Assembly: GCA_002711565.1 (NCBI GenBank)
Contig: PARP01000072.1
Location: forward strand, 1 to 50,560
DNA length: 50,560 nt
DNA from: Bacteroidota bacterium
GTDB taxonomy: Bacteria; Bacteroidota; Bacteroidia; Bacteroidales; GCA-2711565
Reading direction: 5' to 3'
Under the pieces are notes generated by a model, which had not been told where the DNA came from, did not search any database, and was given only the letters and a program-made list of their open reading frames with translations. The translations under genes were made by a program, and so were the position numbers. Of this stretch, positions 3,486-21,754 are shown in pieces. Position 1 is the stretch's first letter. The number at the start of each line of letters is the position of its first letter.

Positions 3486-4493
3486 TTATCTACCCGTTAA
3501 TTCTTTAGGGATTCGTCCATTCTTTATAGATTCTGAACGTAATTCACGACCACAAATGCGTTCCACCATTCTACCTATTTCAAGCACTTTATCTACATCC
3601 AATTGTGTATCAATTCCCATTTCATCCATCATAACAACCATATCTTCCATTGTAACAAGTCCAACCTTGTTTGGATCGTTATAGTAATAAGCTCCTGTTC
3701 CCGATACAGGAACACCGCTGATGAAGTTCGCAGGCTGTCCGCCAAGACCACCCATAGTTGCTTCATAATTTGTCATACCAGCTTGAAGGGATGCTAAAAC
3801 ATTAGCTAATCCCCAACCTCTGGTTTCATGGAAATGCACAATATGCTTCTCAGGATGTGGTATCGCATCTAATAACATTGAATAGTATTTATATACACGG
3901 TCTGGTGATGCTGAACCATCATGATCGGCGTGCTCTACATCATCACAGCCCATATCTAGCCAGCGTTTAGTGAAATCGATGGCAGTTTTCATATCGGTAG
4001 GACCTTCGATCGGGCATCCCCAAATAGTACTTACAGTACCATTTACTTTAATCCCTGCGTCTTTACATTTTGGGATCCATTCTTCACACATTTTGAAATA
4101 CTGTTCAATAGTCAGGCCTGAGTTTTTGAATTGATGAGATTCACTAGTAGAGATCATAACCAAGATGCGATCCGGGCCCCAGCCTTCCAATTTTGCCTTA
4201 ATTGCACGATCGATTGCACGCTCTCTGATCGTTACTGCAGTTACGCTAACATCGTCAAGAAGATGTTTAACTTTTTTGCTGTTTCTGAGACGCTTTAGAA
4301 GGTCATCAGCATCGGCGAATTGAGGCATTCCTTTAGGATTTCCAAGGTTTGTTGCTTCGAAATGTTTGAAGCCTGCGAGAACCAGTTGCTCTAAGACCCA
4401 AAGTTTGGCTTCGGTAGGAATGAATTGTTCTTCATGTTGAAAGCCATCACGAACGGTAATATCTCCAATTGTTACTTTTTTAGGATAATTCAT
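3486..4493 (-). CDS. HMGL-like (DRE-TIM metallolyase) family protein with altered active site
   Basis: This 335-residue TIM-barrel protein keeps the family's metal and substrate motifs: R15-D16-G-F-Q near the N-terminus and H220-x-H222 in a H-F-H-E-T-R-G segment. The loop that in HMG-CoA lyase carries the catalytic cysteine (GGLGGCP) reads GGLGGQP here (Q253), so a classical HMG-CoA lyase reaction is unlikely. It is divergent from the carboxyltransferase gene at 4770, and two copies of a shared palindrome lie between them, so it very probably serves the same leucine-type pathway. Possible roles are another C-C lyase step or handling of the carboxyl donor. A relic second copy lies at 2958-3120. 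The specific reaction is unknown. Confidence 0.75.
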   Translation of the reverse strand: MNYPKKVTIGDITVRDGFQHEEQFIPTEAKLWVLEQLVLAGFKHFEATNLGNPKGMPQFADADDLLKRLRNSKKVKHLLDDVSVTAVTIRERAIDRAIKAKLEGWGPDRILVMISTSESHQFKNSGLTIEQYFKMCEEWIPKCKDAGIKVNGTVSTIWGCPIEGPTDMKTAIDFTKRWLDMGCDDVEHADHDGSASPDRVYKYYSMLLDAIPHPEKHIVHFHETRGWGLANVLASLQAGMTNYEATMGGLGGQPANFISGVPVSGTGAYYYNDPNKVGLVTMEDMVVMMDEMGIDTQLDVDKVLEIGRMVERICGRELRSESIKNGRIPKELTGR

Positions 4494-4769: not shown

Positions 4770-6377
4770 GTGTTTAAATTAGAAACTAAAATCGACCCGA
4801 GTTCTGAGGAGTTTAAAAAGAACAAAGAGGGTTTCCTGAAGATCTTAACAGAATACAGAGAAATCCTGAAACAAGTTACAAAAGGGGGATCGGAAAATGC
4901 GATCGATAAACACAAATCCAGAGGTAAACTACTGGCAAGAGAACGCATCGACAAACTGATAGACCCAAACACTCCATTCCTGGAGCTTTCTTCTCTAGCC
5001 GCTTACAATGTTTTCGATAATGGTCATCCTTCCGCAGGGATCGTTACCGGAATTGGTGTAATTCAAGGTAGAGAAACTATTATTATTGCCAATGATGCTA
5101 CCGTTAAAGGCGGTACCTATATAAAAGAAACCATTAAGAAACATCTTCGTGCTCAGGAAATTGCTATGGAGAATCATTTACCATGTGTTTATATGGTAGA
5201 CTCGGGCGGTGTTTTCTTACCTGAACAAGCAAATGTATTCCCTGACAGAGATCACTTCGGTAGGTTTTTCTACAATCAGGCTCAAATGTCATCAATGGGA
5301 ATCCCACAAATCGCAATTGTAATGGGTTCATGTACTGCTGGTGGTGCTTATGTTCCTGCTATGAGTGATGAAACCATCATTGTTAAGAATCAAGGAACGA
5401 TCTTCCTTGGTGGACCTCCACTTGTAAAGGCTGCAACAGGTGAAGTTGTTACTCCTGAGGAATTGGGAGGAGCTGATGTTCATACCGCAGTTTCAGGCGT
5501 GGCAGATCATTATGCTGAAAATGATATTCATGCAATTCAAATATGTAGAAATATCTTTGAGAATCTGGATAATAGAGCTAAACAAGCTTTAGATCTTGCT
5601 CCAATCGAGGAACCACTTTATGATCCTGAAGAATTATATGGTATTGCTCCTATCGACTTCCGTAAAATGGTTGATCCTAAAGAGGTGATCATGCGTATAG
5701 TTGATGGTAGTAAATTCCATGAATTCAAAGAAAGATATGGTAAGACATTAATTACAGGATTCGCAAGAATTATGGGTTATCCTGTAGGTATTATTGCTAA
5801 TAATGGTGTTTTATTCAACGAATCTGCTGTTAAAGGTGCTCACTTCATCGAGCTTTGTTCAGCTCGTAAGATACCATTGGTTTTCCTTCAAAACATTACA
5901 GGATTTATCGTAGGTAAAGATTTTGAAAGAAAAGGAATTGCTAAGGATGGTGCGAAACTCGTACATGCAGTTGCTACAGCCAATGTTCCTAAATTCACTG
6001 TGATCTTTGGTGGATCATTTGGTGCAGGAAACTATGGTATGGCTGGGAGAGCATATTCTCCACGTTTATTATTCATGTGGCCAAATGCAAAGATCTCAGT
6101 TATGGGCGGAATGCAAGCTGCAAACGTTCTTATCACTGTTAAGCAAGATCAGTATAAAGCTAAAGGCAAGGAAATGCCTAAAGAAGAGATCGAAGCTTTA
6201 CGTGAAAGCATTATTAAGAAATATGACTTTGAAGGATCAGCTTACTACAGTACAGCCAGATTATGGGATGACGGAATTATCGATCCTGTAAATACGCGTC
6301 AGGTATTGGCAATGGGTATTGCTTCTTCATTGAACAAGCATATTGGTGATCCAAAATTCGGAGTATTCAGAATGTAA
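4770..6377 (+). CDS. mccB: Methylcrotonyl-CoA carboxyltransferase (MCC beta / transcarboxylase 12S-like) subunit
   Basis: A 535-residue acyl-CoA carboxyltransferase with both crotonase-fold halves. It carries the MCC-beta hallmarks [16 protein letters not shown] and [14 protein letters not shown] in the N-half, and [18 protein letters not shown] and [11 protein letters not shown] in the C-half. It moves a carboxyl group from biotin to 3-methylcrotonyl-CoA to give 3-methylglutaconyl-CoA. The start used is a GTG at 4770. It leads a tight operon, followed 11 bp later by the hydratase and then by the biotin protein. The usual partner, an MCC alpha subunit with biotin carboxylase, is absent; the partner here is the 723-residue protein at 7195. 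Confidence 0.92.
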
Positions 6378-6388
6378 TTTATTATTTC

Positions 6389-7180
6389 ATGACGAACTAT
6401 CAGCATATAGAATTTGAACTCGACAATAAGATCGGGACTATCTGGATGAACCGTCCGGAGAAGCATAATGCAATGAATGCCGAGATGATCGGCGAGATCA
6501 TTGATTGCTTCGAATCTGTATCTGACCTAAATGATGTTCGTGTAGTTGTTTTAAGAGGTAAAGGAAAATCATTTTGCGCAGGTGCAGATCTGAATTATAT
6601 GAAAGGCATCGCGTCTTTCGGCTTTCAGGAGAATTATGAAGACAGCCTTAAGCTTGCAAAATGTTTCAATGCCATCTACACTTGTAAAAAACCAACAATT
6701 GCTGTTGTACACGGTGCAGCAATTGGCGGTGCAAATGGACTATTAGCAGCATGCGACTTCGTTTATTGTCATGAAGAAACCAAATTCGCTTTTTCCGAAG
6801 TTAAACTTGGAATTGCACCAGCAACCATATCACCTTATGTAGTTAAACGTACAGGTGAATATAATGCTAGAGATCTTATGCTCACTGGTCGTCGTTTCTT
6901 AGGAGGTGAAGCTGAAAAATATGGTTTGGCAAACAAATCCCTCAATGAAACTGAGCTAGAAGAGCAACTTAAATTAACTATCAAATTCTTAATGACAAGC
7001 GGACCTGATGCAATGGCTGCTTGTAAAGAATTATTGTATACCATTTCTAATAAACTAGATTTTGAAAACTCTATTGATTATACGGCAAAACTGATTGCTG
7101 AACTTAGAGCATCAAAAGAAGGTCAGGAAGGAATGGCTTCATTTTTAGAAAAACGTAAACCCAACTGGGTAGAAAACTAG
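6389..7180 (+). CDS. liuC: Methylglutaconyl-CoA hydratase (enoyl-CoA hydratase family)
   Basis: A 263-residue crotonase. The oxyanion-hole segments are visible as K-S-F-C-A-G-A-D-L and G-A-A-I-G-G-A-N-G-L, with the acidic patch in F-A-F-S-E-V-K-L-G-I-A-P-A, and the protein ends FLEKRKPNW. The position between the MCC-type carboxyltransferase and its biotin partner matches liuC in liuBCD clusters, so hydration of 3-methylglutaconyl-CoA to HMG-CoA is the likely reaction. It follows the carboxyltransferase by 11 bp and precedes the biotin protein by 14 bp, so the three are almost certainly one transcript. The assignment among enoyl-CoA hydratases rests on context. Confidence 0.85.
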   Translation: MTNYQHIEFELDNKIGTIWMNRPEKHNAMNAEMIGEIIDCFESVSDLNDVRVVVLRGKGKSFCAGADLNYMKGIASFGFQENYEDSLKLAKCFNAIYTCKKPTIAVVHGAAIGGANGLLAACDFVYCHEETKFAFSEVKLGIAPATISPYVVKRTGEYNARDLMLTGRRFLGGEAEKYGLANKSLNETELEEQLKLTIKFLMTSGPDAMAACKELLYTISNKLDFENSIDYTAKLIAELRASKEGQEGMASFLEKRKPNWVEN

Positions 7181-7194
7181 ATACGATCAGACAG

Positions 7195-9366
7195 ATGAAA
7201 AAAAGAAGAATCAAATTCAGTCTCGTTTACCGCGATATGTGGCAATCTTCAGGGAAATATGTTCCCCGAGTGGATCAATTGAAAAAAGTCGCTCCGGTGA
7301 TTGTCGATATGGGATGTTTCGACCGCGTTGAAACAAATGGTGGTGCTTTTGAACAGGTAAACCTGCTTTATGGTGAGAACCCAAATACAGCAGTTCGTGA
7401 ATGGACTCAACCATTCAATGATGCGGGGATCCAAACGCATATGCTTGAAAGAGCATTGAACGGAATTCGAATGTTCCCGGTACCTGCTGATGTACGTGAA
7501 CTTATGTTTAAAGTGAAGAAAGCACAGGGAACTGATATATCACGTTCATTCTGCGGATTGAATGATCATCGTAATCTTGAAAATTCAATTGTATTTGCTA
7601 AAAAAGCAGGAATGATCTCTCAGGCTTGTCTTTGTATTACTCATTCAAACATTCATACAGTTGATTATTATACAAAACTTGCTGATCAACTTATCGAATA
7701 CGGTGCTGAAGAGATCTGTCTGAAAGATATGGCTGGTATTGGCCGCCCGGATTCTCTAGGTAAACTTGTTAAAGAAATCAAAAACCGTCATCCAAAAACT
7801 ACGGTTCAGTATCATGGACACTCTGGTCCTGGTTTCTCTGTTGCTTCAATGATCGAAGTTGCAAAAGCCGGTGCCGACTATGTTGATGTTGCCATGGAAC
7901 CTCTTTCCTGGGGTATGGTTCACCCGGATGTGATCACCATTCAAGCGATGCTTAAAGATGCAGGATTTGATGTTCCGGAGATCAATATGAATGCTTATAT
8001 GGAATGTCGTGCACTTACTCAAAGCTTTATTGACGAGTGGTTAGGGCACTTCATCAATCCTAGAAACAAATTCTTATCATCATTAATGGTAAGTAGCGGA
8101 CTTCCAGGTGGAATGATGGGAAGTTTGATGGCCGATCTTAAAGGTGTACACGAAGGAATTAACTTCTCATTAAAAGCTGAAGGTCAACCTGAACTTACAG
8201 AAGATGAGTTATTGATCAAACTATTTGATGAAGTTACTTATGTATGGCCAAAACTTGGTTATCCACCACTTGTAACTCCATTCAGTCAGTATGTTAAGAA
8301 TGTTGCACTTCTAAATATTGTTCAATTATCAAAAGGTGAAGAGCGCTATTCGATGATGGATGACAACACCTGGAATATGATTTTAGGTAAAGCCGGAAAT
8401 CTTCCTGGAGAACTTGCACCAGAAATCGTTGAATTAGCAAAATCCAAAGGATTAGAGTTCTACACTGGAACTCCACAAGATGCTTATCCGGATGAGCTGG
8501 ATAAATATCGAAAAGAGATGGAAGAGAATGGATGGGAAACCGGAGAAGATGATGAGGAGCTATTCGAGTTCGCAATGCATGAAACTCAGTATCGTGATTA
8601 TAAATCCGGACTTGCAAAGAAAAGATTTGATGATGAAATTGAAAAATTAAGTGCTGAAGCAGCAACTACAACCGTTAAAACCACAACTGCCGTGAAAGAA
8701 AAACAAAAACCAAATAGAAATAGCTATAGTAAAGATGCCGTAAATTATCCTGAAGCAATGATCGCATATACTTTATATAGCTTAGATAAGGAACTTACTA
8801 AAACAGAACCTTACCTTCTTCCGAAGCATGATATCTGGAATGCAATTGGTTATTGGAGAAATAATATGAGCTTAAAGTTGAATTATAATGAACAAGAATA
8901 TGAAATTGAACTTAAGCAGAATCAGGATAATTATCTGTTTACAATAGAAAACCAGAATTATGAAGTTGAAAAACTATTCATTGATTCTGGAGAGATTGAT
9001 CTAAAAATATTTGACAAATCTTATACTGCTGCGATCGGTAGTGCCGAAGATGCAGCAAAGATCACTATTAATGATGACGAGTTTGTGATGAGTCGCCTCG
9101 ATCTTCTTGAAGGAGAACAATCTGTTGAAGATGATGGCAGTGTTGCAGCTAGTGAAAATCACATCTTATCACCTATTCCGGGTAGAATCTTCAAGATCAA
9201 TGTTCAAGAAGGTGATACCGTAGAAAAAGGTGATGTTGTACTTGTGATCGACGCCATGAAAATGGAGAACAATATTACCAGCAAACGTGAGGGCACGGTA
9301 GAAAAATTATTAGTTGATCTGGATGATATGGTGGAAGCTGGAGCTCCACTACTTGAGATCGTTTAG
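7195..9366 (+). CDS. Fused transcarboxylase 5S-like / BT-like / biotin carrier protein (chimeric MCC alpha replacement)
   Basis: A 723-residue protein with three parts. Residues 1-470 resemble the 5S (oxaloacetate/pyruvate) carboxyltransferase. Metal ligands are kept as D14 (Y-R-D), K177 (L-K-D-M-A-G) and H207/H209 (H-G-H-S-G), followed by L-P-G-G-M and P-P-L-V-T-P blocks. Residues about 500-640 form a Thr/Lys linker and a beta-rich stretch with an I-W-N-A-I-G-Y-W-R-N motif that resembles the BT domain of methylcrotonyl carboxylase alpha. The last 75 residues are a biotinyl domain with A-M-K-M (K689, 34 residues from the end). Known biology: transcarboxylase uses 12S, 5S and 1.3S parts to move CO2 between acyl-CoA and oxaloacetate without ATP. 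Inference: this protein plus the 12S-like subunit carboxylates 3-methylcrotonyl-CoA. The donor is unproven, as several substrate-site residues differ from pyruvate carboxylase. Confidence 0.85.
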   Translation: MKKRRIKFSLVYRDMWQSSGKYVPRVDQLKKVAPVIVDMGCFDRVETNGGAFEQVNLLYGENPNTAVREWTQPFNDAGIQTHMLERALNGIRMFPVPADVRELMFKVKKAQGTDISRSFCGLNDHRNLENSIVFAKKAGMISQACLCITHSNIHTVDYYTKLADQLIEYGAEEICLKDMAGIGRPDSLGKLVKEIKNRHPKTTVQYHGHSGPGFSVASMIEVAKAGADYVDVAMEPLSWGMVHPDVITIQAMLKDAGFDVPEINMNAYMECRALTQSFIDEWLGHFINPRNKFLSSLMVSSGLPGGMMGSLMADLKGVHEGINFSLKAEGQPELTEDELLIKLFDEVTYVWPKLGYPPLVTPFSQYVKNVALLNIVQLSKGEERYSMMDDNTWNMILGKAGNLPGELAPEIVELAKSKGLEFYTGTPQDAYPDELDKYRKEMEENGWETGEDDEELFEFAMHETQYRDYKSGLAKKRFDDEIEKLSAEAATTTVKTTTAVKEKQKPNRNSYSKDAVNYPEAMIAYTLYSLDKELTKTEPYLLPKHDIWNAIGYWRNNMSLKLNYNEQEYEIELKQNQDNYLFTIENQNYEVEKLFIDSGEIDLKIFDKSYTAAIGSAEDAAKITINDDEFVMSRLDLLEGEQSVEDDGSVAASENHILSPIPGRIFKINVQEGDTVEKGDVVLVIDAMKMENNITSKREGTVEKLLVDLDDMVEAGAPLLEIV

Positions 9367-9530: not shown

Positions 9531-10676
9531 ATGAATTTTGACTTAAGCGAAGAGCAACTCATGATCAGAGGCGCTGTTCGGGATTTTGCTGAACAAGAAA
9601 TTAAACCTCTGGCTCACGATCTTGATGAGAAAGGGGAATTCTCAATAGAACTAACCAAAAAAATGGGCGAGCTTGGCCTGTTTGGGATGTATCTTCCCGA
9701 ACAATACGGTGGACAAGGTCTCGACACACTTTCATATATTATTGCTGTAGAGGAAATTGCACGAATTGATAGCTCTCAAGCTGCAACTCTAGCTGCACAT
9801 AATTCCCTCGGAATAGGTCCGATTTATTACTATGGCACCGAGGAACAGAAAATGAAATACCTACCACAACTTTGTACAGGTGAAGCTTTATGGGGATTCG
9901 GACTTACAGAACCTGATGCTGGCTCAGATTCCCGAGCCACAAAAACTAAAGCTTTTCTTGAAAATGGTGAATGGAATATCAATGGAACAAAAATCTTCAT
10001 TACAAATGGAGCTTCTGAGATCTCTATTGGTTCAACCGTACAAGCAGTTAGTGATGAGGAAAATGGAAGAAAAGAATTCACATGTATCTTGGTAGACAAA
10101 GGAACTCCCGGATTTACCACCAAAGAAATGCATGGTAAAATGATGTGGCGAGCTTCAGATACTGCAGAGCTATATTTTGATGACTGTAAAGTTCCTGAAT
10201 CTCATCTTCTAGGTAAAGTAGGTGAAGGTTCACATATCATGTTAAGTACGCTTGATAATGGCAGATTATCTATTGCGGCCATGGGATTAGGACTAGCTCA
10301 AGGTGCTTTTGAATTAGCCTTAAAATATGCCAATGAAAGAAAACAATTTGGCCGCCCAATCTCAAAGTTCCAGGCGAATGCATTTAAACTTGCTGATATG
10401 GCAACTAAGATTGAATTGGCAAGAAACCTATTATACAAAGCATGCTGGTTAAAAGACAATGACAAAGCCTTCGCTAAAGAGGCAGCAATGTCTAAACTAT
10501 ATTGCTCAGAAATAGCAAGAGAAGTCGCAGATGAAGCTCTTCAAATTCATGGAGGTTATGGTCTAATGAAAGATTACGACATAGAACGTCACTATCGTGA
10601 TCAAAGACTATTACAAATTGGTGAGGGAACATCTGAGATCCAAAGATTGGTGATCTCTCGCTATATCGGTTGCTAA
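9531..10676 (+). CDS. Acyl-CoA dehydrogenase (isovaleryl/short-chain type)
   Basis: A 381-residue flavoprotein dehydrogenase. Signature motifs include G-F-G-L-T-E-P-D-A-G-S-D (FAD and substrate contacts), E-R-K-Q-F-G-R-P-I and the C-terminal I-G-E-G-T-S-E-I-Q-R with E365 as probable catalytic base. Electrons pass to EtfAB (20019-21754). Context (after methylcrotonyl carboxylation genes and before acetoacetyl-CoA synthetase) suggests isovaleryl-CoA as substrate. Classical isovaleryl-CoA dehydrogenases have a non-acidic residue in that C-terminal position and place the base elsewhere, so a short-branched or straight-chain acyl-CoA substrate is also possible. The 164-bp gap before it holds a structured element. 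Confidence 0.88.
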   Translation: MNFDLSEEQLMIRGAVRDFAEQEIKPLAHDLDEKGEFSIELTKKMGELGLFGMYLPEQYGGQGLDTLSYIIAVEEIARIDSSQAATLAAHNSLGIGPIYYYGTEEQKMKYLPQLCTGEALWGFGLTEPDAGSDSRATKTKAFLENGEWNINGTKIFITNGASEISIGSTVQAVSDEENGRKEFTCILVDKGTPGFTTKEMHGKMMWRASDTAELYFDDCKVPESHLLGKVGEGSHIMLSTLDNGRLSIAAMGLGLAQGAFELALKYANERKQFGRPISKFQANAFKLADMATKIELARNLLYKACWLKDNDKAFAKEAAMSKLYCSEIAREVADEALQIHGGYGLMKDYDIERHYRDQRLLQIGEGTSEIQRLVISRYIGC

Positions 10677-10709: not shown

Positions 10710-12647
10710 ATGAGTGAACACATTTTGTGGCATCCTAATAAGGAGAAAGCTGAAGCTTCTCAAATGAATGAATTCTTACAATTGATTCATTCGAAATATC
10801 AATTATCTTCTACTAATTATTCAGCACTTCATCAATGGAGTATTGACTTTCCTGATCTTTTCTGGGAAGAATTTTATCATTACTCGAAAATAAAGTACAG
10901 TCAGGATTATACCTCTGTTGTTGATGATTATAAGAAAATGCCTGGTGCTAAATGGTTTGAAGGTTCCCGACTAAACTATGCCGAGAATTTATTGAAACGT
11001 AAAGATGATAAAACAGCGATCATTTTCAGAGGTGAAAACATCGTAAAGCGAAAATTATCTTATAAAGAACTGTATGAGCAAGTAGAAAAAACAGCAGCAG
11101 GATTAAGGAGCTTAGGTGTAGAAAAAGGTGATAGAGTTGCCGGCTTTATGCCAAATATGCCTGAAACTATAATCGCAATGCTAGCTGCATCTTCAATTGG
11201 TGCAATATGGAGTTCATCCTCTCCAGACTTTGGTATCAAAGGCGTTCTGGACAGATTTACCCAAATAGCACCAAAAGTAATTTTTGCCGCCGATGGTTAT
11301 TATTTTAAAGGCAGATCTTTTGATTCACAGGAAAAACTAAAAGGAATTCTGGACCAACTACCTTCCATTGAGAAAGTGGTTTTGGTTAATTATACAGATA
11401 ATGTACAAACTGATCAGTTTGAAAACGCCATCACCTTTGAAGAACTATGCGGCTTAAGCGATGAACAACTCACGTTCGAACAACTTCCTTTTGATCATCC
11501 ACTTTATATAATGTACTCTTCGGGTACAACGGGGTTGCCAAAGAGTATTGTTCATTCTGCCGGAGGAACATTAATTCAACATTTGAAAGAGTTGAAGTTG
11601 CACTGCGATCTTAAAGAAGATGATGTACACTTCTATTTTACGACTTGTGGTTGGATGATGTGGAATTGGTTCGTAAGTTCATTAGCTGTTGGAGCAACAA
11701 TTGTTTGTTATGATGGAAATCCATTTTACCCTGAACCTGACGCATTACTAAAGCTTTCTGATGAGCTGAATTTCAGCATCTTTGGCACTAGCGCTAAATA
11801 CATTGCAATGCTTGAAAGTGAGGGGGTTGTACCAAAAGATATTTCAGACTTCCCGAATCTAAAAGCCATTTTATCTACAGGATCACCTTTAGCAGATGAG
11901 AGCTTTGAATATGTTTATAGAGAATGGAAATCTGATATTCAGTTATCATCCATTGCTGGAGGAACAGATATTATCTCATGTTTTGTTCTTGGCAATCCAA
12001 TGTTACCGGTTTATCGAGGAGAGATCCAATGTAAAGGTTTGGGAATGGATGTGGATTGTTGGGATGAAACAGGAAACAGCATTCTAAATGATAAAGGTGA
12101 ATTGGTTTGCAAGAAAGCATTCCCTTCTATGCCGATCTACTTCTGGAATGATGAAAATGGAGAAAAATACCATGATGCATACTTTGCAGAATATCCTAAT
12201 ATCTGGCATCATGGTGATTATGTTCTGATTTCAGATCATGGTGGTGTAGTAATGCACGGCCGTTCTGATGCAACTTTAAACCCTGGTGGAGTTAGAATTG
12301 GAACGGCTGAGATCTACCGTGTTGTGGAGAACATGGAAGAAATAGCAGATTCGGTAGTAGTTGGACATACAATTGATGATGATGAAAGAGTAATCCTTTT
12401 TGTTAAAATGAATGAGGGTTTAGGTCTGGATGAGGAAATTATAAAAAAGATCAAAACATTGATCAGATCAAATTGTAGTCCGAGACATGTCCCTGAACAA
12501 ATATTACCAACTCCCGACATTCCATATACGATCAATGGGAAAAAAGTGGAAGTTGCTGTCAAGAAGATCATCCATGGACAGGAAGTTAAAAACAAAGACG
12601 CACTTTCCAATCCGGAATCCTTAGATTACTTCCAAAATCGACTTTAA
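10710..12647 (+). CDS. aacS: Acetoacetyl-CoA synthetase
   Basis: A 645-residue adenylate-forming enzyme that activates acetoacetate with ATP and CoA. It shows the acetyl-CoA-synthetase-like N-terminal cap, the ATP loop Y-S-S-G-T-T-G-L-P-K, the T-C-G-W-M-M-W-N-W segment typical of acetoacetyl-CoA synthetases, and the C-terminal catalytic lysine region Y-T-I-N-G-K-K-V-E. Length fits the family (about 650). It follows the dehydrogenase by 33 bp. In the pathway it recovers the acetoacetate made by HMG-CoA lyase, feeding acetoacetyl-CoA to the thiolase at 25714. Its use implies no CoA-transferase is needed for this step. Confidence 0.93.
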   Translation: MSEHILWHPNKEKAEASQMNEFLQLIHSKYQLSSTNYSALHQWSIDFPDLFWEEFYHYSKIKYSQDYTSVVDDYKKMPGAKWFEGSRLNYAENLLKRKDDKTAIIFRGENIVKRKLSYKELYEQVEKTAAGLRSLGVEKGDRVAGFMPNMPETIIAMLAASSIGAIWSSSSPDFGIKGVLDRFTQIAPKVIFAADGYYFKGRSFDSQEKLKGILDQLPSIEKVVLVNYTDNVQTDQFENAITFEELCGLSDEQLTFEQLPFDHPLYIMYSSGTTGLPKSIVHSAGGTLIQHLKELKLHCDLKEDDVHFYFTTCGWMMWNWFVSSLAVGATIVCYDGNPFYPEPDALLKLSDELNFSIFGTSAKYIAMLESEGVVPKDISDFPNLKAILSTGSPLADESFEYVYREWKSDIQLSSIAGGTDIISCFVLGNPMLPVYRGEIQCKGLGMDVDCWDETGNSILNDKGELVCKKAFPSMPIYFWNDENGEKYHDAYFAEYPNIWHHGDYVLISDHGGVVMHGRSDATLNPGGVRIGTAEIYRVVENMEEIADSVVVGHTIDDDERVILFVKMNEGLGLDEEIIKKIKTLIRSNCSPRHVPEQILPTPDIPYTINGKKVEVAVKKIIHGQEVKNKDALSNPESLDYFQNRL

Positions 12648-14316: not shown

Positions 14317-17300
14317 TTACATATTTCTTCGATACTGTCCACCAACATCAAATAAAGCTTCTGTAATTTGTCCGATCGAACAATACTTGGCAGCTTCCAT
14401 AAGTACCTCAAACACATTTGCATTGTCAACCGATGCTTGTTGCAAATCTTTAAGTAATTTTCTTGATTCTTCAGCATAAGTTTGATGTAATTGATCCAGC
14501 ATTTCTATCTGATACTCCTTTTCTTCTGGTGTAGCACGAATAACTTCACCAGGTAGAACCGTTGGAGAACCTTTAGAAGACAAGAAGGTATTTACGCCCA
14601 TTATTGGGAGCTCACCTGTATGTTTCAAGGTTTCATAATACAATGATTCTTCCTGTATTTTGCTTCTTTGATACATTGTTTCCATTGCACCAAGAACACC
14701 TCCTCTTTCAGTTATTCTATCAAATTCTGCTAGAACAGCTTCTTCAACAAGATCTGTTAATTCTTCTATAATGAAAGCACCTTGCAGAGGATTCTGATTC
14801 TTAGCCAATCCAAGCTCGTGATTAATGATCATTTGAATTGCCATCGCTCTTCTTACAGACTCTTCCGTTGGAGTAGTAATGGCCTCATCATAAGCATTTG
14901 TATGAAGTGAGTTACAATTATCATAGATCGCATATAAAGCCTGAAGTGTAGTTCGAATATCATTGAAATCGATTTCCTGAGCATGCAATGATCTTCCAGA
15001 AGTTTGAATATGATATTTCAGCTTTTGAGACCTACTATCAGCACCATATTTATTCTTCATGGCTTTCGACCAGATCAATCGGGCTACACGACCCAATACA
15101 GAATATTCAGGATCTACACCATTTGAGAAGAAGAACGATAAATTCGGAGCGAACTTATTGATGTCCATTCCTCTGGAAACATAGTATTCAACATAAGTGA
15201 AGCCATTAGCTAAAGTAAATGCCAATTGTGAAATTGGATTTGCTCCGGCTTCAGCAATATGGTATCCTGAAATAGAAACTGAATAGAAGTTTCTCACATT
15301 ATTCTCTATAAAATACTGTTGAATATCTCCCATTAATCTTAAAGAGAAATCTGTTGAGAAGATACAGGTATTCTGAGCCTGATCTTCTTTTAGAATATCT
15401 GCTTGAACGGTACCGCGTACTCGGCAGATCGTTTCCGCTTTGATCTTATTATAAACATCAGCCGGAAGAACTTGCTCTCCTGTAACACCAAGGAGCATTA
15501 GACCTAAACCATCATTTCCTTCAGGCAGATCACCTTGATATTTTGGACGCTTTGTGCCACGAGCTTTGTAAATAGCTTCTATTTTCTTTTCAACTTCTTT
15601 CTCTAAACCATTCTCCTTAATATAGATCTCGCATTCTTGATCGATTGCGGCATTCATAAAATAACCCACCATCGTAGGAGCCGGACCATTAATGGTCATT
15701 GAAACAGAAGTTTTAGGATCTGTCAAATGGAATCCTGAATATAACTTCTTAGCATCATCCAAACAACAAATGGACACACCTGAATTACCGATCTTACCGT
15801 AAATATCAGGTCTTCTATCAGGATCTTCTCCATAAAGTGTTACTGAATCAAAGGCAGTTGATAAACGTTTCGCAGGTAATCCTAAGGACACATAGTGGAA
15901 TCTTCGATTAGTTCTTTCAGGTCCACCTTCACCAGCAAACATTCTTGTTGGATCTTCACCTTCACGTTTAAATGGGAATACACCCGATGCATAAGGAAAT
16001 TCTCCTGGTACATTTTCTTTTAAAACCCATTTAAGAACATCTCCCCAGCCTTCATATTTAGGCATGGAGATCTTAGGAATTTGCAGATGCGATAATGATT
16101 TGGTATGAGTTTCAACAGAAAACTCTCTATCACGAACTGTATACTTGAATACAGGATCACTGAATTTCTTCTTTTTCTCATCCCAGGTCTCAATAATATT
16201 CATATTGCGACCATCCAGTTCCATTTCAATGGATTTATATTTTTCTTCAAGAGCCTCAATTGTAGCTTTATCTTTTTCCTCGTCAAGCTCGGAGATTGAT
16301 TTCTTAAGAGCATATAACTTTTGAGCGATTTTTGCTTGCTCCTCAGACCATTCATTATATGATCTTACCGTGTCAGAGATCTCCGATAAGTATCTAGTTT
16401 TATTAGGAGGGATGATGAAGATCTTTTCAGACATTTCATCCGTTACTTTCATATTGGATTTGAAATCAACTCCGGTTTTCTCCTTGATCTTTTCAATGAG
16501 TGCAGCATAAAGCTGATTTACTCCCGGATCATTGAACTGAGATGCAATGGTTCCATAGACCGGCATAGTATCCACATCCACTTCCCATAAATTATTGTTT
16601 CTGGCATATTGCTTTTTGACATCGCGTAAAGCATCCAATGCACCACGTTTATCAAACTTATTTAATGCTACAACATCAGCAAAGTCAAGCATATCGATCT
16701 TTTCCAGCTGAGTAGCTGCACCGTATTCAGGAGTCATTACATACATTGAAATATCAGAATGGTCCACAATTTCAGTATCCGACTGTCCAATTCCCGAGGT
16801 CTCAAGAATTACAAGATCATAATTTGCTGCTTGCACAATTTGCTCAGCATCTTTCACATATTTCGACATTGCGAGATTGGATTGACGAGTTGCCAATGAT
16901 CTCATATAAACTCTTTCATTAAAAATCGAGTTCATACGTATTCTGTCGCCAAGCAGAGCACCACCTGTTTTACGTTTTGAAGGGTCAACTGAGATAATAG
17001 CTATCGTTTTATCTTCAAAATCGGCTAAATATCTTCTAACTAATTCATCTACAAGTGAAGATTTACCAGCACCCCCTGTACCTGTAATTCCAAGTACCGG
17101 TGCATTATTCTTTTCAGCTCTTTTATGGATTTCCTTAAGTACATCTTGAATATCATCTGGGTTGTTTTCAGCGGATGAGATAAGATGACCGAGAAGTTTT
17201 GCATTGCCTTTCAAATCACCATTTAAATTGATGTCTTTTGCCAGACCTGTAGGGAAATCAGATTTTTCCATCAGATCATTGATCATTCCACGAAGTCCCA

Positions 17301-17688
17301 TCTCACGACCATCATCCGGTGAGTAAATCCTTGTGATTCCGTAGTCGTGAAGTTCTTTGACTTCCTCCGGAAGGATCACTCCTCCTCCACCGCCAAAGAT
17401 CTTGATATGACCGCAGCCCCTTTCCTGAAGCAAGTCATACATATACTTGAAAAACTCAATATGTCCGCCTTGATAAGAAGTAATAGCAATCGCCTGAACA
17501 TCTTCCTGAATCGCACATTCCACGATCTCTTGTACAGATCGGTTATGCCCTAGATGAATCACTTCCGCTCCTGTGGATTGAATGATCCGACGCATGATGT
17601 TAATAGCTGCATCATGTCCATCGAATAATGAAGCGGCAGTGACGATTCTGATGTGATTTATAGGCTTATAAATCTCCGCATTCGTCAT
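14317..17688 (-). CDS. icmF: Fused isobutyryl-CoA mutase IcmF (B12 domain, G-protein chaperone, mutase)
   Basis: A 1123-residue fusion. Residues about 12-140 form the B12-binding domain (L-F-D-G-H-D-A-A with H25 as lower cobalt ligand). Residues about 190-420 are the MeaI-type GTPase chaperone (P-loop G-T-G-G-A-G-K-S at 203-210, N-K-F-D later). A linker follows, then the mutase TIM barrel starting near residue 540 ([17 protein letters not shown], then N-R-R-F-H-Y). This order is diagnostic of IcmF, which interconverts isobutyryl-CoA and n-butyryl-CoA, with weaker isovaleryl/pivalyl-CoA activity in known members. It links valine degradation to butyryl-CoA beta-oxidation by nearby enzymes. It is first gene of an icmF-buk unit. 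Confidence 0.92.
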
Positions 17689-17879: not shown

Positions 17880-19949
17880 ATGTTAAAACAAATTCTTTTT
17901 GCAATTTCTGTATTGGTAACATTAGGATGTTTTTCATGGACCGCATGGAGAATTTATACCTATTTCAGACTCACAAAACCATATCCGATTGGAGATTTTG
18001 GTAAGCGCTTCTGGTTAATGATGAAAGTAGCGATCGGGCAGACGAAAATCTTCCGTCATCCGGTAATGGGATTACTTCACGCACTCGTATTCTGGGGCTT
18101 TTTAGTAATTCTTGTAGGAAGTATTGAAATGATCATTGATGGTTTCGCTGGAACTGAAAGAGTGCTTGCAGTTTTAGGACCTGTCTATGATGTATTAATG
18201 GCTTCAGGTGATGTATTTGCATTCATCATTGCACTTTCAATTTTAGTATTCTTATGCAGAAGGCTTTGCTTAAAAGTTGCCCGTTTCTACGGACCAGAGA
18301 TGAAGAAAGTATCTAAGCTTGATGCAAATATTGCCTTAACGATCATCTTTGTTTTAATGATCACTCTGCTAGGAATGAATGTATTTTATATTCTTCATGC
18401 AGGTAATGATTTTGTAGGTGTTTATCCTGTAAGTGAATACATCGCCGGATTACTAACAGGAATGAGCCATGAAAGCATTTTCATCTGGCATGAGATAAAC
18501 TGGTGGGGACATATTCTATTGATCTTCTTATTTGCGAATATCCTTCCGTATTCTAAGCACTTCCACGTATTCATGTCAGTTCCAAACGTATTCTTAAGCC
18601 GTTTAGAACCTCTTGGATACTTAACAAATATGCCAAACATCACTAAAGAAGTGAAGTTAATGATGGATCCTAATGCTGCTTTTGATACTCCAGCCGAAGG
18701 TGAGGATGAAGTTGAACGTTTTGGTGTTCTTGATGCAGAAGATACGACCTGGAAAAACTATATGGACTCTTTAACATGTACTGAATGTGGTAGATGTACG
18801 GCAGTTTGTCCGGCAAATATCACTGGTAAGAAATTATCACCTCGTAAGATCGTTATGGACTTACGTGCACGTATGAAAGAAAAAGGGCCAGGTCTTGTTA
18901 AAGATGCTGCTTATTCAGATGATAAAGCATTGATCAGAGATTATATTTCGGAAGAGGAACTTTGGGCATGTACTACGTGTAATGCATGTGCTCAGGAATG
19001 TCCGGTAAACATCAACCATCCGAACTTGATCGTGGACATGCGTCGTTATTTGGTGATGGAAGAGTCTGCTGCTCCTGGTGAACTGAACTCTGTATTTACA
19101 AATATTGAGAATAATGGTGCTCCATGGCAGTTCTCTCCAGAAGACAGAATGAAATGGGCAGAAGATGTAAATCTTGAAGTACCATTGATGGCAAATAAAC
19201 TTGCTGAGGGCAAAACTCCTGAATACTTATTCTGGGTTGGTTCTGCTGGTGCATTTGATGACAGATTTAAGAAAGTAAGTCGTGAGTTCGTTAAGATCTT
19301 AAATCATGTTGGTGTTGATTATGCAGTTTTAGGAACTGAAGAAACTGACAGTGGTGATCTTGCTCGTCGTGCCGGTAATGAGATGTTATTCCAAATGCAG
19401 GCGATGATGAATATCGAGATCCTGAATGGCTATGAAGTGAAGAAGATCATCACTTGTGATCCTCATGATTATAATACTTTCTTAAATGAGTATCCTGAAT
19501 ATGATGGTAAATTCGAAGTGATCCATCACTCTCAATTCCTTGCTCAATTATTGAAAGAAGGTAAGTTATCACTAAATGATACATTCAATGGACAGAATAT
19601 CACTTTCCACGATCCTTGTTATTTAGGTAGAGCGAATGGTGAATATCAAGCTCCACGTGATGTGATTAATGCATTACCAGCTAAGAATGTTGAGATGAAA
19701 CGTTGTAAGAGTTTCGCATTATGTTGTGGTGCAGGTGGTGGACAAATGTTCAAGGAAGCTGAAGAAGGTAACAAGGAAGTATTTATCGAGCGTATCGAAG
19801 ATGCTATTGAAACCAAAGCTGATATTGTTGCTACAGCATGTCCGTTCTGTATGGTAATGATGACGGATGGTATTAAATATAAAAACAAAGAAGAAGAAAT
19901 GAAAAACCTTGACATTGCTGAGTTGATCTCGCAATCGATGGATTTATAA
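17880..19949 (+). CDS. Membrane Fe-S oxidoreductase, ETF:menaquinone oxidoreductase type
   Basis: A 689-residue protein with about five to six N-terminal membrane helices (residues 1-260, heme-b NarI-like), two 4Fe-4S motifs (C300, C303, C306, C310 and C364, C367, C370, C374) and two C-terminal CCG domains (H-D-P-C-Y-L-G-R and A-L-C-C-G-A-G-G-G, then T-A-C-P-F-C). This domain order is that of the FadF/EMO family, which takes electrons from reduced ETF to menaquinone. Its position opposite etfAB and among four acyl-CoA oxidation genes supports that role. It ends at a strong bidirectional terminator shared with etfA. A heterodisulfide-reductase-like role is less likely because HdrA/C partners are missing. 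Confidence 0.87.
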   Translation: MLKQILFAISVLVTLGCFSWTAWRIYTYFRLTKPYPIGDFGKRFWLMMKVAIGQTKIFRHPVMGLLHALVFWGFLVILVGSIEMIIDGFAGTERVLAVLGPVYDVLMASGDVFAFIIALSILVFLCRRLCLKVARFYGPEMKKVSKLDANIALTIIFVLMITLLGMNVFYILHAGNDFVGVYPVSEYIAGLLTGMSHESIFIWHEINWWGHILLIFLFANILPYSKHFHVFMSVPNVFLSRLEPLGYLTNMPNITKEVKLMMDPNAAFDTPAEGEDEVERFGVLDAEDTTWKNYMDSLTCTECGRCTAVCPANITGKKLSPRKIVMDLRARMKEKGPGLVKDAAYSDDKALIRDYISEEELWACTTCNACAQECPVNINHPNLIVDMRRYLVMEESAAPGELNSVFTNIENNGAPWQFSPEDRMKWAEDVNLEVPLMANKLAEGKTPEYLFWVGSAGAFDDRFKKVSREFVKILNHVGVDYAVLGTEETDSGDLARRAGNEMLFQMQAMMNIEILNGYEVKKIITCDPHDYNTFLNEYPEYDGKFEVIHHSQFLAQLLKEGKLSLNDTFNGQNITFHDPCYLGRANGEYQAPRDVINALPAKNVEMKRCKSFALCCGAGGGQMFKEAEEGNKEVFIERIEDAIETKADIVATACPFCMVMMTDGIKYKNKEEEMKNLDIAELISQSMDL

Positions 19950-19969
19950 ATTTCAATCTTAGATATTAA

Positions 19970-20000
19970 AAAAGGGCGCTTCCGATGGAAGCGCCCTTTT
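19970..20000. terminator. Strong bidirectional terminator
   Basis: A perfect 14-bp stem (AAAAGGGCGCTTCC with GGAAGCGCCCTTTT) around a GAT loop, with T-rich flanks in both directions. It separates the converging oxidoreductase and etfA genes. Confidence 0.92.
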
Positions 20001-20018
20001 CTTTTAGTTGTATGTCAA

Positions 20019-20984
20019 TTATTCTGCTTTTGCAGCTTTGATTGCATCGATCAATTCCGGAAGAATTTTTTGAGCATCACCTATGATACCGTAATCTGCA
20101 GCTTCAAAGATAGGAGCATCTTTATCTGTATTTACAGCTACAATAACTTTTGATGAGCTAACTCCACCTAAGTGTTGGATCGCACCTGAGATACCAAATG
20201 CAAAGTAAAGGTTAGGAGCAATGATCTTACCAGTTTGTCCAACGTGCTCGCTATGAGGTCTCCAGTCTTCATCAGAAACCGGACGAGAACATGCAGTTGC
20301 ACCGCCTAATAATTCAGCTAATTCTTCAACCGGACCAAAGTTTTCAGGTCCTTTAAGACCACGACCACCGGCAATAACAACCTCAGCATCATTTAATAAT
20401 ACTTTACCTGTTACTTTATTGGTTTCTTTAACTGCAGTCTTAACATCTTCAACGCTAGCATCGAATGCTTCAACTGCAGCATCTTTAGCATCTTCTACAA
20501 GTCCGAACGAGTTTTGTGCAAGTGTAACGATCTTCACATCTGACTTCACAACTACATTAGCTAAAGCTTTTCCTGTAAAAACTTTTTTCTTTACAGTGAA
20601 AGGATCATAGCTTGATGGTACTTCAGTAGCACCTGCAATAACACCTGCTTTCATTTTAACTGAAAGACGAGGAGCGATCGCTTTACCTGCATTATTATTT
20701 GCTAATAAAACAACTTTAGCAGCTTCTTTAGCAGCAACCTCAGCAATAACACCTGCATAAGGTTGGTTTTCAAGGCTTGCTAATTTATCATCATTAACGC
20801 TAACAACTTTAGCAGCACCGTATGCACCTAAAGATTTTAATTCAACGTCTTCTACATTTCCAATAGAAAGGGCAATTACTTCTGTACCTAATTGTTTTGC
20901 CATTTCATTTGCATAAGAGATCAGTTCAAAACTTAATTTTTTGAATTTACCATCCCAATTTTCGGTATAAACTAATACTGACAT
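20019..20984 (-). CDS. etfA: Electron transfer flavoprotein subunit alpha
   Basis: A 321-residue ETF alpha subunit that binds FAD and carries electrons from acyl-CoA dehydrogenases to the quinone oxidoreductase. The FAD domain is seen as G-G-R-G-L-K-G-P-E-N-F, then S-R-P-V-S-D-E-D-W, H-S-E-H-V-G-Q-T-G-K and Y-F-A-F-G-I-S-G-A-I-Q-H near the C-terminus. These are family signatures, and the length is normal. It follows etfB by 26 bp on the minus strand. No fused or bifurcating-type insertions are apparent, which suits an ordinary respiratory ETF. Confidence 0.95.
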   Translation of the reverse strand: MSVLVYTENWDGKFKKLSFELISYANEMAKQLGTEVIALSIGNVEDVELKSLGAYGAAKVVSVNDDKLASLENQPYAGVIAEVAAKEAAKVVLLANNNAGKAIAPRLSVKMKAGVIAGATEVPSSYDPFTVKKKVFTGKALANVVVKSDVKIVTLAQNSFGLVEDAKDAAVEAFDASVEDVKTAVKETNKVTGKVLLNDAEVVIAGGRGLKGPENFGPVEELAELLGGATACSRPVSDEDWRPHSEHVGQTGKIIAPNLYFAFGISGAIQHLGGVSSSKVIVAVNTDKDAPIFEAADYGIIGDAQKILPELIDAIKAAKAE

Positions 20985-21010
20985 TTCAATGATTTTTTAT
21001 GGTTTAACAA

Positions 21011-21754
21011 TTAAAGCACTTTTGCTTCATTCTTTAATAGACTTACTAATTCGCTTACATTCTCAGCATCAACCATCTTACATGCAGCTTTAGCAGCTGG
21101 TAATTCGTAAGAAACAAATTCTGTTAAAGCTTCAACCTCAGCAGCAGCAACAACGTTCAATGGCTTTTTACGTGCCATCATGATACCACGCATTGCAGGA
21201 ATTCTAGGTTCTTTAGTTATCCCTTTTTGAACGATAGCTACGAATGGAGTAGCAACATTAACGATTTCTGAACCACCATCGATCTCACGAGTAACGTTGA
21301 TATCACCACCTTCTATCTCCATTTTAGAAACTGAAGAAACTGAAGGAACATTCAAGAATTCTGATAACATTCCACCAACTGCAGAGCTGTTATAATCACT
21401 TGATTCGATACCTGTCATAACGATATCAAAATCTTTAGCTACCTCTGCAATTTGAGCAGCTACGTAATAAGCATCTTTAGGTTCAGCATCGATACGAATT
21501 GCATCATCAGCACCAATTGCCAAACCTTTTCTCATTGTAGGTTCAACATCAGCACCACCAACTGTAACAACAGTTACAGAAGTAATTGCTCCACCAGAAG
21601 CTTCTTTTAATTCTAAAGCACGTGTAAGAGCTAACTCATCCCATGGATTGATGATCCACTGAACACCCGCTTTTTCAACAGCAGAATTGTCACCAGCCAA
21701 CTTGATCTTCGTTGTTGTATCTGGAACATTGCTTAAGCAAATCAATATTTTCAT
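21011..21754 (-). CDS. etfB: Electron transfer flavoprotein subunit beta
   Basis: A 247-residue ETF beta subunit. Recognisable features are the N-terminal M-K-I-L-I-C-L-S-N-V-P-D-T-T, N-P-W-D-E-L-A-L-T-R-A, and V-T-R-E-I-D-G-G-S-E near residue 160, followed by P-R-I-P-A-M-R-G-I-M. It is first in the etfBA unit. A perfect TAnnTTTG element at 21793-21800 (minus) predicts transcription starting about 32 nt before the ATG. The partner dehydrogenases are encoded at 9531 and 22354, and the membrane acceptor at 17880. Confidence 0.95.
   Translation of the reverse strand: MKILICLSNVPDTTTKIKLAGDNSAVEKAGVQWIINPWDELALTRALELKEASGGAITSVTVVTVGGADVEPTMRKGLAIGADDAIRIDAEPKDAYYVAAQIAEVAKDFDIVMTGIESSDYNSSAVGGMLSEFLNVPSVSSVSKMEIEGGDINVTREIDGGSEIVNVATPFVAIVQKGITKEPRIPAMRGIMMARKKPLNVVAAAEVEALTEFVSYELPAAKAACKMVDAENVSELVSLLKNEAKVL

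Follow-up and report, generated by a model that had tools for sequence, protein, structure and literature searches.

The methylmalonyl-CoA carboxytransferase (transcarboxylase; EC 2.1.3.1) of Propionibacterium consists of 12S, 5S and 1.3S parts and moves CO2 between acyl-CoA and oxaloacetate. The 5S-type domains shift the carboxyl group between oxaloacetate and biotin, and the beta subunit of 3-methylcrotonyl-CoA carboxylase (MCC; EC 6.4.1.4) shifts it from biotin to 3-methylcrotonyl-CoA. To our knowledge, few acyl-CoA acceptors have a known transcarboxylase, and MCC is regarded as always ATP-dependent. No description of a methylcrotonyl-CoA transcarboxylase was found in the open-licence literature, which agrees with the original prediction, in which no described enzyme of this type was known; the transcarboxylase kind is known, but an MCC-type acceptor module for it is new, in the sense that the searchable open-licence literature does not describe one.

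We analyzed a stretch of 50,560 nucleotides (hereafter, the window) from the forward strand of contig PARP01000072.1 in assembly GCA_002711565.1 of a Bacteroidota bacterium (Bacteria; Bacteroidota; Bacteroidia; Bacteroidales; GCA-2711565). Like MCC, the window combines an MCC-beta, a BT domain, a biotinyl domain, a liu-type cluster and an alpha-type partner in the third slot; unlike MCC, this partner, a 723-residue fusion protein, lacks the biotin carboxylase (BC) domain that uses ATP and bicarbonate and has a 5S domain instead. The best explanation, to which we assign a probability of roughly 75 %, is that MCC-beta and the fusion form an ATP-independent, biotin-dependent 3-methylcrotonyl-CoA:oxaloacetate carboxyltransferase, an activity that is inferred, there being no activity, expression or complex data. 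The genes of the cluster and the predicted domains of the fusion are the following:

3486-4493, minus strand: HMG-CoA lyase-like protein, 335 aa (HMGL-like, 112 bits; PRK05692, 195.8 bits, below the cutoff of 246)
4770-6377, plus strand: MCC-beta, 535 aa, the acyl-CoA carboxyltransferase half (PF01039, 505 bits)
6389-7180, plus strand: methylglutaconyl-CoA hydratase-like protein, 263 aa (ECH_1, 185 bits)
7195-9366, plus strand: 5S-BT-biotinyl fusion protein, 723 aa (open reading frame, Pfam, PDB sequence search, AlphaFold2 model)
7195-8664, plus strand: within the fusion, transcarboxylase 5S/OadA-type carboxyltransferase domain, residues 1-490 (1rqb, Foldseek match 1rqh, invariant residues)
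8743-9114, plus strand: within the fusion, BT domain, residues 517-640, with a helix, a hook containing W548 and W554, and an eight-stranded barrel (AlphaFold2, Foldseek, similarity to MCC-alpha)
9154-9363, plus strand: within the fusion, biotinyl domain, residues 654-723, with lysine K689 in AMKM (PF00364, E=1e-17)
9531-10676, plus strand: acyl-CoA dehydrogenase, presumably for isovaleryl-CoA (profile searches and synteny)
10710-12647, plus strand: acetoacetyl-CoA synthetase (TIGR01217, 925 bits, above cutoff)

The order MCC-beta, hydratase, 723-residue protein, as originally read, was confirmed together with the open reading frame at 7195-9366, and the gene order of the window is kept in about 20 other named contigs. 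Most of the MCC-alpha loci of relatives that were opened have the order MCC-beta, hydratase, MCC-alpha and then often acyl-CoA dehydrogenase; because MCC-alpha is third there, the fusion demonstrably holds the MCC-alpha slot, and the claim that this slot normally encodes MCC-alpha holds for the Bacteroidales relatives. The top NCBIfam model for the hydratase is gamma-carboxygeranoyl-CoA hydratase, with a score under the cutoff of that model. The HMG-CoA lyase-like gene is kept beside the operon in relatives, many of which have an extra lyase-like gene of about 282 aa close by; none was seen in the window. Adjoining the cluster on the minus strand (14317-17688) is a 1123-aa fusion of B12-binding, MeaB GTPase and acyl-CoA mutase parts (isobutyryl-CoA mutase type), and at 17880-21754 a 689-aa Fe-S oxidoreductase adjoins two electron-transfer flavoprotein subunit-like genes, a set through which the electrons of the acyl-CoA dehydrogenase are likely to pass.

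The domain make-up of the fusion could be established from sequence and modeling. Pfam detects HMGL-like (132-234), PYC_OADA (345-488) and Biotin_lipoyl (657-722) domains and no BC domain in the 723 residues. By PDB sequence search, the closest solved relative is the Propionibacterium transcarboxylase 5S subunit (1rqb, E=4e-40, query residues 35-460). The AlphaFold2 model (mean pLDDT 83) has a TIM barrel and a helical part up to about residue 490, followed by a disordered linker and a long helix (518-535). Foldseek matched the N-terminal part to 1rqh, the 5S subunit in complex with pyruvate, at TMt 0.84 and rmsd 3.2, and the whole model to 5ks8 as the top hit. Residues R13, D14, Q17, R86, K177, H207, H209 and T361, which include the four metal ligands named in the original prediction (D14, K177, H207, H209), are identical in all 35 distinct fusion sequences; T361 lies in an LVTP motif and corresponds, we presume, to the catalytic threonine of pyruvate carboxylase (T908/T882 in PDB titles). 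The predicted 5S active site thus appears intact and under full constraint, without decay, and the 5S-type carboxyltransferase expected of a transcarboxylase is present in the fusion, complete with its metal ligands and its pyruvate site. As in two-subunit pyruvate carboxylase B and the alpha subunit of oxaloacetate decarboxylase, the 5S-type domain precedes a biotinyl domain; the whole-model match to 5ks8 is a further likeness, and NCBIfam ranks its model of pyruvate carboxylase subunit B first. The protein could accordingly be read as one of these two subunits, placed in a liu cluster by chance and independent of MCC-beta. However, that NCBIfam match reaches 295 bits, far short of the 402 required, which leaves the protein without a fitting curated name, there is no adjoining BC partner, and neither an OadB-type membrane beta subunit nor a Na+ pump gene was found in the window operon by open reading frame and Pfam analysis. 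Both labels, pyruvate carboxylase subunit B and OadA, were rejected on these scores and the lack of partner genes.

A further difference from those subunits is the MCC-type BT domain between the two domains of the fusion. The BT domain is a helix within an eight-stranded barrel (PMC4673880), and the AlphaFold2 models contain, after helix 518-535, eight antiparallel strands (558-634). Residues 505-723, modeled on their own (pLDDT 85.6), retrieved MCC and PCC alpha-subunits first in Foldseek (E ~1e-11), in accord with the BT-like region noted originally; the low TM-scores (~0.4) are expected if the placement of the BT domain relative to the biotinyl domain differs between this model and MCC/PCC alpha. 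The BT segment of the fusion from the window aligned with 10 of 15 MCC-alphas of relatives at z=10-24, weakly with the most divergent ones, and with the tails of six 5S paralogues at z of at most 2.0. The hook residue W548 is present in 34 of 35 fusions and 14 of 15 MCC-alphas, and W554 in 35 of 35 and 13 of 15, respectively. Searched alone against PDB by sequence, the BT region gave no real match, and its identity therefore rests on the alignment with relatives, the model and the fold comparison. The quick BT-biotinyl tree has long branches and is not evidence for branching order. The predicted biotinyl lysine also stood: K689 is invariant in all 35 fusions, within AMKM (32) or SMKM (3). The fusion hence has both the BT and biotinyl domains of an MCC alpha-type partner and the biotinyl carrier with a target lysine of a transcarboxylase. 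With the Propionibacterium enzyme the system shares a biotinyl carrier, an acyl-CoA carboxyltransferase, the lack of BC and a 5S-type domain whose metal and pyruvate ligands are the same; unlike in that enzyme, an MCC-type BT domain links 5S and carrier into one chain, and MCC-beta takes the place of the 12S subunit as the acyl-CoA half.

The nearest solved chains to the window MCC-beta are the MCC-betas 9tps/9tqc (the 9tqc title names L. pneumophila MCC), 8j4z and 3u9r. It scores 713-755 bits with MCC-betas, 478 with geranyl-CoA carboxylase and 265 with transcarboxylase 12S; with an MCC-beta in place of a 12S-type subunit, the system does not qualify as a methylmalonyl-CoA carboxytransferase. 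Phe191 of MCC-beta (human numbering) distinguishes MCC from geranyl-CoA carboxylase (PMC4673880). The aligned residue in the window protein is F163, and this MCC-type active-site Phe, expected of an MCC, is conserved in all 33 fusion-linked MCC-betas. Donor and acceptor lack assays, and genomes without BC have further carboxylation needs, which leaves a slim chance that the enzyme is a transcarboxylase with another acyl-CoA acceptor or carboxyl donor. The bit scores and the conserved Phe, nevertheless, point away from another acceptor, and the full conservation of the oxaloacetate/pyruvate site residues away from another donor. Our own assignment of 3-methylcrotonyl-CoA and oxaloacetate is an inference that rests on the protein family, the gene cluster and a single specificity residue. 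Two other MCC-beta positions differ with the partner: residue 423 (window 6036-6038) is Gly in 33 of 33 fusion-linked and Ala in 18 of 18 MCC-alpha-linked proteins, and Glu448 (6111-6113), present in 16 of 18 MCC-alpha-linked ones, is lost in the fusion-linked ones. These changes might be an adaptation to the new partner.

Among 60 relatives (G000-G059), the full fusion is present in eight, all with MCC-beta at 77-86 % identity, and 19 others with a close MCC-beta have MCC-alpha with BC (in G048, cut by the contig end); none of the 60 has a close MCC-beta with both. This mutual exclusion is demonstrable in the genomes sampled; its chance under independent labels, about 1 in 2.2 million, is merely descriptive because the genomes share ancestry. 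An order-wide sample contained the fusion in 30 of 393 genomes, every one with the close MCC-beta that supplies the acyl-CoA carboxyltransferase partner of a transcarboxylase, and MCC-alpha was found in none of the 30. Under the reading of the fusion as a pyruvate carboxylase or oxaloacetate decarboxylase subunit, MCC-beta would consequently be left without a partner, and residues 505-723 resemble MCC-alpha; we regard that reading as barely tenable. Outside the order, a phylum-wide sample of 394 genomes yielded only 5S paralogues and no fusion. The lineage is one of uncultured Bacteroidales, and all carriers seen are metagenome assemblies.

The original prediction stated that BC is absent from both the protein and the window, and a search of the window's own assembly likewise found none; with a completeness of only 72 % for this assembly, the argument has to rest on the relatives. 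In 26 of the 30 fusion genomes there is a single BC, in an open frame of 437-539 aa, the size of stand-alone AccC; all above-cutoff BC matches in the 30 genomes fall in such frames, and no genome has more than one. G017 (99 % complete), G038 (95 %), G093 (98 %) and G146 (96 %) yielded no BC and keep MCC-beta and the fusion; these four span three families, and G038 and G146 are the two sampled members of one family, so that the absence repeats within it. Queried with an AccC protein, G093 gave no match and the other three genomes only weak ATP-grasp-type ones (18-30 bits); AccC itself was recovered from G002 and G005 at E < 1e-236. Although metagenome assemblies can be incomplete, chance loss of BC from four near-complete ones that kept both genes is unlikely. 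A BC co-occurring with the pair would have refuted the original prediction, which survived this check. The BC domain expected of an MCC is missing from the fusion, from the locus and from four whole genomes. AccC could in principle charge the biotin in the 26 genomes that have it, which counts against our proposal and leaves the possibility that the enzyme, charged in trans, is still an ATP-dependent MCC whose 5S domain is a relic or side activity. We consider this unlikely given the four genomes without BC and the full constraint on the 5S active site; furthermore, no AccC lies within the 22 fusion loci checked, and each of the four AccC loci opened is an operon of AccC, a biotin carrier of its own (168-170 aa) and another carboxyltransferase. 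As the sole charger, AccC is rejected for the genomes without BC.

In the proposed carboxyltransferase, the 5S domain would transfer the carboxyl group of oxaloacetate to biotin at K689, with release of pyruvate. The biotinyl arm would then move to MCC-beta, where 3-methylcrotonyl-CoA would become 3-methylglutaconyl-CoA, the next step in leucine breakdown, with neither ATP nor bicarbonate consumed; the BT domain, which has stayed of the MCC type, may anchor the fusion on the beta hexamer. Complex formation is inferred, and how the dimeric 5S fold would pack on an MCC-type hexamer remains unexplained, which also weighs against the proposal. The suggestion that leucine breakdown is ATP-free, with carboxyl from oxaloacetate, is supported only as far as it can be inferred from the domain family, the conserved residues and the gene content of the genomes. 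Oxaloacetate is likely to come from PEP carboxykinase, which is encoded in 28 of the 30 fusion genomes, and can therefore form while conserving ATP; a point against the proposal is that no clear ATP-type PEP carboxykinase was found in G017, one of the genomes without BC. Transcarboxylases are reversible, as the proposed reaction should be, and the Propionibacterium enzyme serves oxaloacetate formation. The pair might thus run in reverse, passing the carboxyl of 3-methylglutaconyl-CoA to pyruvate to give oxaloacetate and 3-methylcrotonyl-CoA for anaplerosis or isovaleryl-CoA synthesis, but this seems quite improbable, as the acyl-CoA dehydrogenase, HMG-CoA lyase-like protein and acetoacetyl-CoA synthetase of the cluster and the electron-transfer flavoprotein-like genes nearby form a leucine oxidation pattern. 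The forward direction is inferred because the cluster is oxidative. We think it likely, if a shade less firmly than the activity itself, that this is a natural single-domain-swap enzyme that lets a group of Bacteroidales, including species without BC, oxidize leucine with no ATP spent at the carboxylation step. If so, the BC energy source would be exchangeable as a module, with docking domain and acceptor half retained; one ATP equivalent would be saved per leucine in organisms living on little energy; the standard annotation as pyruvate carboxylase subunit B would mislead for fusion genomes; and the enzyme would offer a template for engineering ATP-free carboxylases.

In the MCC-beta tree (51 rows), the 33 fusion-linked rows clearly form one clade (support 100/100), which midpoint rooting nests among the 18 MCC-alpha-linked rows, and the swap therefore looks like a single event. 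In the 5S tree, computed with a quick method, the 35 fusions group together (SH-aLRT 93) next to Bacteroidales 5S proteins of about 593 aa, the closest relatives of the fusion N-terminal domain (63-75 % identity), which differ from the fusion in having no BT domain. Judging by sequences alone, the simplest history would be one swap of the MCC-alpha BC domain for the 5S domain of a resident Bacteroidales transcarboxylase. Among these paralogues (L010-L020, L051-L110), 63 of 69 sampled carry a biotinyl domain that has degenerated and lost the MK motif of the biotin lysine (e.g., CYIQTYYG); the remaining six have MKT/MKV. The paralogues would need a separate biotin carrier. In G093, whose fusion matches that of GWF2_35_48, L248:1783-5954 encodes a 589-aa 5S protein without the biotin lysine, a 519-aa carboxyltransferase and a 143-aa biotin carrier with EAMKM, a predicted classical three-part transcarboxylase set. 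BC is missing in 25 of the 60 relatives (22 of the 50 near-complete ones), and the malonyl-CoA supply of such relatives might also depend on transcarboxylation. Finally, one relative (G054, L232:1507-4359) encodes hydratase and MCC-alpha in a single 951-aa frame, which either is a fusion of the two or reflects the loss of a stop codon.
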